A stretch of DNA of 44,100 nt from a virus. The notes under the pieces are model-generated. The model ran no database searches and was not told where the DNA came from. It saw nothing but the letters and a program-made list of their open reading frames with translations. The stretch spans positions 1 to 44,100 of the IMG/VR virus record IMGVR_UViG_3300030101_003761. One strand, given 5' to 3'. Each line of letters opens with the position of its first letter. Within the stretch, counting starts at the first letter, position 1. Positions 472-17,869 of this stretch are shown here, one piece after another. Both the position numbers and the translations under genes were made by a program.

Positions 472-532
472 AGAGTGGTTAAGTAATATATATCTCTCAA
501 TTACATTGAGATATATATTACTAAACCTCTCT
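472..532 (-). repeat. 61-nt inverted-repeat hairpin, copy A
   Basis: Arms 472-500 and 506-532 pair over about 25 bp around the loop ttaca, with a 2-nt bulge and two mismatches; the core arm is AGTAATATATATCTC. It is one of three copies (others at 1498 and 2790) with the same length, core and bulge position. It lies in the gap between the 545-742 and 87-446 genes. Copy A differs from B and C at the stem base, but some of the changes are compensated on the other arm, which argues for selection on pairing. No U-tract follows on the minus strand, so it is not a simple rho-independent terminator; an RNase III-type processing site or dimeric operator fits better. Confidence 0.85.
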
Positions 533-1497: not shown

Positions 1498-1558
1498 AGA
1501 GTGTCTAAGTAATATATATCTCTCACTTACAGTGAGATATATATTACTAAGACTCTCT
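1498..1558 (-). repeat. 61-nt inverted-repeat hairpin, copy B
   Basis: Arms starting AGAGTGTCTAAGTAATATAT on the left and ending AAGACTCTCT on the right pair over about 27 bp around a 3-nt loop (tac), with a 2-nt bulge. It is nearly identical to copy C (2790-2850), including the flank aaagggttt on the right side. It separates the five-gene unit ending at 1571 from the GP88 unit beginning at 1477. Confidence 0.9.
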
Positions 1559-2789: not shown

Positions 2790-2850
2790 AGAGTGTCTAA
2801 GTAATATATATCTCTCACTTATAGTGAGATATATATTACTAAGACTCTCT
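2790..2850 (-). repeat. 61-nt inverted-repeat hairpin, copy C
   Basis: Nearly identical to copy B: the same arms with core AGTAATATATATCTC, the same 2-nt bulge, and a 3-nt apical loop (tat instead of tac). It lies between the 2863-3090 gene and the five-gene unit beginning at 2753. The right flank aaagggttt(g/t) is shared with copy B. Confidence 0.9.
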
Positions 2851-3090: not shown

Positions 3091-3108
3091 GTGGACTGAA
3101 TTGAAATT

Positions 3109-3160
3109 GTTACTGACTCCCCGAAGGGAGTTTCGGCTATTGAAGCCTCATCAGAGTAAC
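3109..3160 (-). ncRNA. type I hammerhead ribozyme (self-cleaving RNA)
   Basis: All catalytic-core elements are present and correctly spaced on the minus strand. Stem I is GTTACT (3160-3155) paired with AGTAAC (3114-3109). The core box is CTGATGA (3154-3148). Stem II is GGCT-TCAAT-AGCC (3147-3135) with the required G10.1-C11.1 pair. The second box is GAAA (3134-3131). Stem III is CTCCC-TTCG-GGGAG (3130-3117), a 5-bp helix capped by a C(UUCG)G tetraloop. U16.1 (3116) and C17 (3115) follow, so cleavage is expected between 3115 and 3114. Both ends lie in stem I, which makes it type I. Stem I is only 6 bp and I see no obvious loop-loop tertiary partner, so the rate could be modest. Confidence 0.9.
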
Positions 3161-3174
3161 TGAAAAACAAGGTC

Positions 3175-3420
3175 TTATGAACCTTGCTGTTGCTTGATGA
3201 CTTCTAACAACTGAGCCTTAGTCATCTTAGACAGACCCTTTGCAGTAGTGGTCTTATTCTTTGATTGAGTCTTGACAACTTCGAGAGCCTCTACTTCAGC
3301 AGTCAACTGAGCCAAGAGTCGAAGGGCAAGAGCCTTTTTCTCTTTTGTAGTGTAGTACTTTGCTTTGTTAACAGCAGATTTAGTAGCAGCGAGAAGAGTG
3401 GTGGTGTTGGACTTAGCCAT
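3175..3420 (-). CDS. small basic protein with SAP/Rho-N-like C-terminus, 81 aa
   Basis: This is the first gene of the left arm. It is rich in Lys, Thr and Ala, with two helices (AATKSAVNKAKYYTTKEKKA and LRLLAQLTAEVEALEVVK) and a C-terminal LSKMTKAQLLEVIKQQ that resembles the helix-extended-loop-helix of SAP or Rho-N-type nucleic-acid-binding domains. A nucleic-acid-binding or nucleoid role is plausible but unproven. A 56-nt hairpin lies 19 nt upstream of the ATG, and the hammerhead ribozyme begins 14 nt after the stop codon, so its mRNA 3' end would be set by ribozyme cleavage. Confidence 0.75.
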   Translation of the reverse strand: MAKSNTTTLLAATKSAVNKAKYYTTKEKKALALRLLAQLTAEVEALEVVKTQSKNKTTTAKGLSKMTKAQLLEVIKQQQGS

Positions 3421-3439
3421 GGTTTTTGGGGTTTAAGAT

Positions 3440-3495
3440 GTTGTAATTAATAAAAGAAGATTCACAAGTGAATCATCTTCTTTTATTAATACAAC
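3440..3495 (-). repeat. 56-nt inverted-repeat hairpin upstream of the first left-arm gene
   Basis: Arms GTTGTA-ATTAATAAAAGAAG and its near-complement CTTCTTTTATTAAT-ACAAC pair over about 25 bp with one single-base and one 3-nt bulge and a tight AA-containing loop. The sequence is unrelated to the 61-nt family but has the same plan and position, with its base 19 nt upstream of an ATG. It probably forms the 5' leader of the left-arm transcript or serves as an operator for it. Confidence 0.8.
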
Positions 3496-4100
3496 TTCTA
3501 ATAGGGTCGGTGGATGGTCAGGGTTGAGTACAACTTGTTGTACTCATATAGGGGGTGGTGATTGTCCCTCGGCGGCCTATAAGAGCCAACTTGGTTGACA
3601 GGAAAGACCACGTATATGCGGACTTCTACCGTGTACACAGCGTACGGCACAAACACAGCAGTTGTTGTAGCTGTACAAAAAAGCTGAAAGTTTGTGCAAA
3701 ATCTTGCATACGTACGGTAGACAGATATCATAAGTGCGTTCGGGGGCATACGCGCTAGCGGCTGTACATATATATAATCCCCCAGATCTGTATTTCTCAC
3801 ATTTTTTTCAGTCCCGCTACCTTTTTCGCCATTTTCCGCCGTTTTTTCTGCGGCTGCGCGATTCTTTCCCAGAAATCTGCCGAAGTGTAATCCTTATGAT
3901 CCACAGGGGGTTACGCTTCCTCATGTAAACTGATAATTCAGGGTTGTTTTTTAGTTTTTTCTTGGTTAACTTTGACAGAGTAAACGGTTTTTTCAAGAAA
4001 ATACAACGATTCTTCTTGGTTTTTTTGTATATTCTGTTATTGATTCGACTTTAACGATTTCTTGGTGAACACGGGTCAACTGTGTTCGTGATTTAGGGGT
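3496..4100. other. divergent intergenic region, about 600 bp, no convincing gene
   Basis: The region separates the minus-strand left arm from the plus-strand virion block. Open frames here are short, overlapping and of odd composition. It holds a perfect 10-bp-arm palindrome (3525-3546), CGTACGG repeated at about 3641 and 3711, TTGACA at 3594, a T-rich tract (3800-3850), a 12-bp stem (3882-3893 with 3908-3919, two wobble pairs) and an inverted repeat GAACAC/GTGTTC (about 4065-4090). It is the natural place for left-arm promoters, a replication origin or a small RNA, but none is proven. Confidence 0.5.
3525..3546. promoter_or_regulatory. operator-like perfect palindrome
   Basis: TGAGTACAAC and GTTGTACTCA form perfect 10-bp arms around a 2-bp centre (TT). 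It sits about 105 bp upstream of the first left-arm ATG in the divergent region, where a dimeric repressor would be expected to bind. A candidate binder encoded in this window is the winged-helix protein at 6875-7312. As RNA it could also form a hairpin with a very tight loop. Confidence 0.5.
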
Positions 4101-14421: not shown

Positions 14422-16637
<2,216 letters not shown>

Positions 16638-16639
16638 AC

Positions 16640-17869
16640 ATGCCAGACATAGCATCACATAACGGAATAGCCGTGGCAGATATAGCATCAATAAACGGAC
16701 AAGACGTCCCAAGCGGAGGGGGCGGAGTATCAGAGCCAACATCAGGGTTTTTAACTTTGGGTGGATCAATTCCAGGCAATAGCGTTCTTCGTTTTGGCGC
16801 AAACAATAACGATACCTTTGAGTCTGTTACGTTTCACTCTAGCGTTTCAAGCGTACCAGCCACAAGCGCTATTACAAAAGTGTCTTCAGGTAGATACATG
16901 GTAGGGATGTTAGACAGCTCTGGTAATCTATACATGTCAGCCGTAGGAAATCAAGAAACAGGGTCTGCAAGTATTTACGGGGGTCACTACAGGCAGTTTA
17001 GCATAGAGCTAACCAGTGTTGCTGATTTTTCTTTCGGAAAAGATCACGGCCTTGCAGTGAAGACGGATGGAACGCTTTGGGGGATTGGTGGTAATGGCGA
17101 CGGTGAATTAGGAAGGGGTAATACAAGTTCTCAGTATTCTACCTTTGCAGAAGTCGGCGGCGGTGCAACAAACTGGTCCAAAGTTTCTTGCGGAGAAGAC
17201 TTTAGCCTAGCCTTGAAAACTACAGGTGCTTTGTATAGCGCAGGTAAAAACCAAGACGGAAGAACGGGGCAAGGGACAACCAGCGGTGACACCACTTCCT
17301 GGACGCAAATAGGAAGCGATACAAATTGGACTCAAATTTCCACTGGTGAAAAACATTCTGCTGGTATATTATCTGGAAAGCTGATTACTTGGGGCGACGG
17401 TAGCAGTCGAAGATTAGGAAATAACAGCTACAGCGACGAAACGTCTCCGTATACCGCTAATAGCGATACAGATTGGCAAAGTGTGCATTGTGGTACTGCC
17501 TATACCAAGGCTATAAAAACTACTGATGGTCATCACTACCATGCTGGAAGTGGTGGTGCCTTTGGCAGCGGGACTCGTGGCGACGGCTCTACAAGCAGCA
17601 CTACCACTTTTACAAGAATAGGGTCAGACACAGGTTGGACAGAGTTTCTTGAATTTAAATATTCTTCTTTTTCTAATTACGCCGCTGGCAAAAAAAGCGG
17701 GAGCTGGTATGTTTGTGGTAGTTATCAACTTGCCCCATATATCAAAACTGGGGGAACAGCTACGGAAAGCAACACTACTACGTTTGTGCAGTTAGCCTCC
17801 CCTAGTCCGTCTTTCTTTTCGTTAGCTCAATACAGTGGGGCTCAACCTGAAGCACTTTATATCGTTTAA
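16640..17869 (+). CDS. RCC1-like beta-propeller tail protein
   Basis: Residues 1-25 (MPDIASHNGIAVADIASING) resemble the short N-terminal anchor repeats of phage fibre proteins. From about residue 70 the protein consists of RCC1-type repeats: HGLAVKTDGTLWGIGGNGDG, then ELGRGNTSSQ; DFSLALKTTGALYSAGKNQD; HSAGILSGKLITWGDGSSRR; KAIKTTDGHHYHAGSGGAFG; and YAAGKKSGSWYVCGSY. This predicts a bladed propeller of about 340 residues. It directly follows the collagen fibre, so a surface-binding (receptor or glycan) role at the fibre tip or baseplate is likely. Confidence 0.8.
   Translation: MPDIASHNGIAVADIASINGQDVPSGGGGVSEPTSGFLTLGGSIPGNSVLRFGANNNDTFESVTFHSSVSSVPATSAITKVSSGRYMVGMLDSSGNLYMSAVGNQETGSASIYGGHYRQFSIELTSVADFSFGKDHGLAVKTDGTLWGIGGNGDGELGRGNTSSQYSTFAEVGGGATNWSKVSCGEDFSLALKTTGALYSAGKNQDGRTGQGTTSGDTTSWTQIGSDTNWTQISTGEKHSAGILSGKLITWGDGSSRRLGNNSYSDETSPYTANSDTDWQSVHCGTAYTKAIKTTDGHHYHAGSGGAFGSGTRGDGSTSSTTTFTRIGSDTGWTEFLEFKYSSFSNYAAGKKSGSWYVCGSYQLAPYIKTGGTATESNTTTFVQLASPSPSFFSLAQYSGAQPEALYIV

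Follow-up and report, generated by a model that had tools for sequence, protein, structure and literature searches.

The window analysed here, a 44.1-kb stretch of viral DNA (44,100 nt), carries a compact RNA element in the gap between two small minus-strand genes. According to the original prediction, this element is a complete type I hammerhead ribozyme whose cleavage would split a dicistronic mRNA. The locus raises two questions: whether the element is a genuine ribozyme, and what a self-cleaving RNA would do at this place in a phage operon.

Structure and genomic position of the hammerhead

Read directly, minus-strand positions 3160-3109 comprise GTTACT CTGATGA GGCTtcaatAGCC GAA ACTCCCttcgGGGAGT C AGTAAC, with the letters GGCT-tcaat-AGCC in stem-loop II and ACTCCC-ttcg-GGGAGT in stem-loop III (Table 1). 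The core is complete (C3 U4 G5 A6 N7 G8 A9 and G12 A13 A14). G10.1-C11.1, A15.1-U16.1 and C17 are all present, position H17 thus being occupied by a base other than G, and three helices surround the core, with stem I open-ended. Both the MFE and the centroid structure of the isolated element reproduced the exact hammerhead fold (-17.4 kcal/mol, z -2.9). When a longer piece with flanks was folded, the MFE structure retained stems II and III and lost stem I, which competes there with neighbouring sequence. The prediction of a complete type I hammerhead was thus confirmed. The predicted helix lengths were 6, 4 and 5 bp; those of stems I and II were right, whereas stem III has 6 bp when A15.1-U16.1 is counted.

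A relaxed type I search and a model search identified this element as the sole hammerhead in the window. The same relaxed search, run on both strands, found no type I hammerhead in 400 dinucleotide shuffles of the window, in agreement with the very small chance that had been attributed to such a match. With very high confidence, we regard the element as a real hammerhead ribozyme; judged from its sequence, it is very likely to be active in self-cleavage.

The hammerhead occupies an 84-nt gap between ORFs of 81 and 75 aa, 14 nt past the stop codon of the former and 18 nt before the ATG of the latter. Because the ribozyme ends 18 nt before this ATG, a cut at 3115/3114 would leave a 24-nt leader; the ORF coordinates agree with the predicted spacing on all these points. 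The element lies on the coding strand, and the predicted cut falls between the stop codon of the first cistron and the start region of the second. Its siting is therefore, as proposed, one that could split a two-cistron mRNA. Pfam matches of the 81-aa protein were all below the cut-off. No Shine-Dalgarno sequence is present in the 24-nt leader, and the other block-starting genes of the operon are alike in this respect. Given the terminator-like hairpin just upstream, production of the ribozyme may be confined to read-through RNA. A Bacteroidota promoter (TTTG-N18-22-TANNTTTG) that would transcribe the second gene on its own was considered and rejected, as none lies near the site and the count in the window does not exceed chance; sigma-70-like sites were likewise no more frequent in the window than by chance. 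Packaging and structural genes lie on the plus strand, and early expression of the minus strand is plausible at most.

The terminase of the window is 48% identical to that of an uncultured podovirus from Manatee Spring, 42% identical to those of Flavobacterium elemoviruses and 34-37% identical to those of Cellulophaga phages; Maribacter phages are also among the relatives, after the elemoviruses. These relatives support the earlier assignment of the DNA to a Bacteroidetes phage. Elsewhere in the window, positions 14865-17869 hold a collagen-repeat tail fibre gene followed by a gene for an RCC1-like (regulator of chromosome condensation) protein. Near the record end, a tRNA-like stretch with a GAGGTTCGAATCCTC T-arm (84-10, minus strand) was called by neither ARAGORN nor Rfam; a partial or atypical tRNA is possible, as is the remnant of an attachment site.

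Table 1. Features of the hammerhead locus and its operon in the window.
Feature	Position	Strand	Remarks
Type I hammerhead ribozyme	3109..3160	-	Sequence, fold, pattern and shuffles, model R1, compensatory changes in orthologues
Stem I	3160-3155/3114-3109	-	6 bp
Core CTGATGA	3154-3148	-	
Stem-loop II	3147-3135	-	Stem 4 bp
Core GAA	3134-3132	-	
Stem-loop III	3131-3116	-	Stem 6 bp, counting A15.1-U16.1
C17	3115	-	
Predicted self-cleavage site, C17 (3115) / A1.1 (3114)	3114..3115	-	Position per established hammerhead mechanism
Upstream cistron, 81 aa	3175..3420	-	Family matches not convincing; conserved across further viral contigs
Downstream cistron, 75 aa	2863..3090	-	No family match
Predicted 24-nt post-cleavage leader of downstream mRNA, AGTAACAATTTCAATTCAGTCCAC	3091..3114	-	Sequence; 19-24 nt in orthologues
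9-bp hairpin over upstream stop codon, then T run, terminator-like	3166..3188	-	Strong only in the window and L002
Long hairpin before first cistron of operon	3436..3499	-	Shape kept in relatives, sequence different
Long hairpin, next gene-block gap	2790..2850 (or 2787-2853)	-	Spacing 12 nt from stop and 36 nt to ATG
Long hairpin, gene-block gap, near-identical copy	1498..1558 (or 1495-1561)	-	
Long hairpin, gene-block gap, near-identical copy	472..532 (or 469-535)	-	

Conservation of the locus and layout of the operon

Orthologous loci were gathered by the upstream 81-aa protein alone, blind to the presence of a ribozyme. Ten were informative: the window, L002 (the same contig as L123/L145), L124, L125, L126, L127, L146, L147, L152 and L153; L128 was left out because its contig ends inside the gene. 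A complete type I hammerhead was located right behind the 81-aa-type gene in 10/10 of these loci, the window counted. Among the protein-selected orthologues, seven pair positions were changed on both sides and no pair was broken, stem III varied in both sequence and length (6-9 bp), and the core was invariant apart from the free N7. The compensatory changes were counted on this protein-selected set; the rows of a further alignment (A3) were chosen for pairing, and counts from it are not independent. The orthologues represent a small group of related phages, with identical ribozymes in L146 and L147 and in L124 and L152.

The predicted cut leaves a leader of 19-24 nt in the orthologues. Different downstream genes follow in L124, L125 and L127, where the hammerhead and a leader of this length are retained; L153 has both a different C-terminal half of the upstream gene and a different downstream gene, again with the hammerhead and leader in place. 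L002 carries a second hammerhead copy in the gap behind an extra 59-aa gene. The hammerhead is kept by selection while its flanking genes change.

The minus-strand genes of the window are arranged in blocks of closely spaced or overlapping ORFs, and each gap between blocks is occupied by the hammerhead or by a long hairpin. Three of the hairpins are near-identical (28+11+28 nt), and the fourth (3499-3436) is similar in shape. Where a gene precedes them, the hairpins begin about 12 nt past its stop codon; they end 15-36 nt before an ATG. Relatives retain this hairpin/hammerhead layout. The first hairpin keeps its shape among relatives with quite different sequences, as expected for an RNA element. 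In the early region of T7, hairpins are cut by RNase III, and by analogy the long hairpins of the window are possible RNase III sites. The arrangement suggests that the hammerhead and the long hairpins form a shared layout for mRNA segmentation, in which the two would be equivalent by position alone.

A compact hammerhead subclass in viral genomes

The first scan of IMG/VR, with the pattern CTGATGAGN{6,20}CGAAAC, returned at least 120 stretches, and a large share of the matches listed were full hammerheads of types I-III. Stem I had exactly 6 bp in 57 of the 74 distinct type I copies among the matches listed. A signature subset was formed by the 47 listed copies with a stem I of at least 6 bp and a 4-bp stem II; in these, the sixth pair of stem I was G-C in 41, and the flanking bases were A in 43 and 42 of 47. 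Where loop II was a pentaloop, it followed the form U-N-A-N-U (U in 40/40, A in 38/40 and U in 40/40 among the matches listed). The fixed U1/U5 and A3 of loop II, the G-C pair closing stem I and the A/A flanks suggest a fixed contact.

The second IMG/VR scan used this subclass signature and left stem I pairing, stem III and H17 free. It yielded 86 usable viral matches among those listed. Of these, 82 extended to complete hammerheads, and stem I had 6 bp in every one; H17 was C in 76 and A in 6 of these 82 listed members. In bacterial and archaeal genomes totalling 257 billion bases, the signature pattern occurred in only 16 stretches, versus at least 120 in the viral collection, which marks the subclass as mainly viral. 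The comparison is one of raw counts, since no total in bases was given for the viral collection, and no exact viral/cellular ratio is claimed. One complete subclass hammerhead lies on a short contig (L164) binned with the archaeon Candidatus Thalassarchaeum, which could be viral or misbinned.

The gene context of the subclass was highly regular. For the 82 copies among the matches listed, a same-strand ORF ended within 25 nt of stem I in 91%, an ORF started (ATG) within 60 nt past the ribozyme in 76%, and both occurred in 72%; random positions gave 3.8% for the combination and the opposite strand 0%. The ATG lay a median of 20 nt past the ribozyme end, or about 26 nt from the cut, and an SD-like motif was present in 39 of 64 leaders (both among the matches listed). 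In a set of 136 distinct UNANU copies, stop codons clustered at a few fixed spots, including a TAA just before stem I, a TAG sharing the first base of stem I (23/136), a TAA that ends the stem I strand (16/136) and the UGA of the CUGA core serving as the upstream stop (22/136). With stop and start placed in this way, a cut would separate the stop codon, which stays with the first product, from the start region, which goes with the second.

Multiple copies per stretch were common, up to eight, and successive copies were mostly a few hundred bases apart. Arrays of 4-5 type I hammerheads lie between consecutive small genes in three contigs (L112, 7500-9990; L092, 2400-3850; L004, 20-1340). Eight type II hammerheads were found in a 6.1-kb viral contig (L122), where Rfam Hammerhead_II scored above its cut-off. 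Use as a cistron separator had been considered unusual; this view was not upheld, since this arrangement is frequent among the phage contigs of IMG/VR and the role was already proposed in 2011 (PMC3088659).

Rfam hammerhead models gave no match to the window element at the gathering cut-off. An Rfam search at E<=10 returned the RAGATH-1 hammerhead at 21.3 bits (cut-off 56.3), a partial Hammerhead_3 match at 15.5 bits and nothing else. Rfam also missed the type I copies in 14/14 type I loci tested together, while detecting the type II cluster of L122. The missing match is thus explained by Rfam models that do not cover the compact subclass. A gathering score is a database cut-off and not a chemical criterion, and the covariance-model check put forward with the original prediction, which gave no match at gathering, is in our judgement a poor test here. 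A separate model (R1), built from phage type I hammerhead copies, scored the window element at 75.9 bits with the window in its training set; copies outside the training set reached 52-66 bits. Model R1 had no match in the named relatives MW202828, Panino, phi46:3, phi38:1, Gundel_1 and Calle_1. The window element belongs to a recurrent compact subclass that deserves its own family model.

Proposed function and comparison with known hammerheads

The best explanation of the element, to which we assign a probability of about 0.7, is that it has been selected to divide polycistronic phage mRNA into pieces that are stable and translated independently of each other. It would act in cis as a type I hammerhead, in an operon on the minus strand of a Bacteroidota-type phage. 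After RNA polymerase has cleared 3109, the transcript would fold and make a single self-cut, between 3115 and 3114. Of the two products, the upstream one would retain its stop codon, its 3' end being the folded ribozyme body bearing a 2',3'-cyclic phosphate; the downstream one would begin with a 5'-hydroxyl and carry a short 24-nt leader that includes the whole start region of the next gene. Long hairpins would mark the other block boundaries of the same mRNA. In favour of this reading, taken as a whole, we counted the fold, the uniqueness of the element, its presence in 10/10 protein-chosen loci, the compensatory pair changes around an invariant core, the leader kept beside swapped genes, the stop/ATG layout of the subclass, the arrays and the published cleavage of phage/prophage-type arrays (PMC3088659). 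Counted against it were the Rfam miss, the absence of stem I from the MFE of the longer fold, the terminator-like hairpin, the position-only equivalence of the long hairpins and the small number of related phages.

Part of this evidence would also suit an active ribozyme tuned for mRNA decay, which stabilises or destabilises one product and separates the cistrons as a by-product. The 5'-OH resists 5'-end-dependent decay and the ribozyme body caps the 3' end; a cut that always spares the stop codon and the start region fits protection of both products, and a terminator-like hairpin stands upstream of the hammerhead. This mechanism is hard to tell from segmentation, but it does not alone explain siting between genes instead of at operon ends, and we consider it unlikely. 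The many UNANU copies that supply a stop codon themselves, at the TAG, TAA and UGA spots counted above, could instead point to a translation-gated switch, in which ribosomes terminating at the stop would prevent the ribozyme from folding, so that cutting would signal that the upstream gene is poorly translated. However, with the stop codon 14 nt upstream in the window, gating would be weak here, and the overlap could be a consequence of short intergenic gaps in phages combined with a core that itself contains stop codons. Such a switch is, in our view, distinctly improbable.

Two further alternatives were considered. A decayed or chance hammerhead-like sequence without activity would agree with the lack of an Rfam match at gathering; a chance origin was rejected on the shuffles (0/400) and on the compensatory changes around an invariant core in the orthologues, and an inactive element is accordingly very improbable. 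Type I hammerheads also occur in selfish or circularising retrozyme-like RNA elements of eukaryotes (PMC6155905, PMC4918200). A retrozyme or other repeat element was rejected for the window, where the hammerhead is a single copy with a constant place between coding genes in all orthologues; the subclass as a whole is likewise intergenic and on the coding strand, which leaves this origin hardly credible.

Beyond segmentation at this locus, we tentatively propose, at somewhat less than even odds, a dedicated phage operon-cutting system. It would be built on the compact subclass (6-bp stem I, UNANU), which is mainly found in phages, missed by Rfam, often stop-carrying and followed by a leader of about 26 nt, and in this phage group it would be exchangeable with conserved long hairpins cleaved by a host nuclease.

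The window element shares with RF00163 and related Rfam models the three-way junction, the core CUGAUGA...GAAA, A15.1-U16.1, C17 and an open stem I. It differs in its stem I of only 6 bp without an internal loop and in the UNANU pentaloop of loop II, and it scores below every Rfam hammerhead cut-off. The best Rfam hammerhead match, RAGATH-1 (RF03152), aligns in the core, stem III and the upstream hairpin, but the score is far under the cut-off, the window has a regular 4-bp stem II, and the upstream hairpin is not general to the compact UNANU subclass. The hairpin was rejected as a conserved RAGATH-1-like part of the ribozyme, being strong only in the window and L002 (mean z -0.5 over 71 copies). 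A subclass missed in this way shows that phage ribozymes are undercounted by current RNA annotation.

Perreault et al. (2011) reported that phage and prophage hammerheads flank genes, often with several per operon, and that arrays cleave in vitro and one array in E. coli (PMC3088659). The authors suggested a processing role for the phage hammerheads, in which long transcripts are cut into mRNAs of gene length (PMC3088659). The window element resembles these hammerheads, some of which cleave, in its intergenic siting in a phage genome (PMC3088659). The whole words Bacteroid and Flavobacter do not occur in the text of that paper (PMC3088659). A 2017 review treated the role of prokaryotic hammerheads as an open question and noted their link to phages and small ORFs (PMC6155905). 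Our literature search, with incomplete coverage of the relevant papers, found neither the stop-codon layout nor the compact subclass described.

A cultured counterpart is Flavobacterium phage elemoA (NC_055852), whose type I copy has the UNANU loop II, the 6-bp stem I and a short leader before gp69 (gap at 17350-17287, minus strand), and scores 52.6 bits with model R1 from outside its training set. This hammerhead region is present in 68 elemovirus records at >=95% identity. The elemoA copy differs by one mismatch in stem III. Its first base also belongs to the stop codon that ends a short ORF, so that the stop overlaps stem I. Long hairpins were not found in elemoA. Besides the type I copy, this phage contains a type III hammerhead, whose core reads CTGAAGA, immediately ahead of gp62 (L130, ~19145-19080, minus strand). 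The elemoA type I hammerhead makes a cultured system available, namely elemoviruses on Flavobacterium sp. BAL314. Together with the strict stop, ribozyme and short-leader layout and the conservation across swapped genes, this phage-host pair renders the mRNA-processing idea directly testable.
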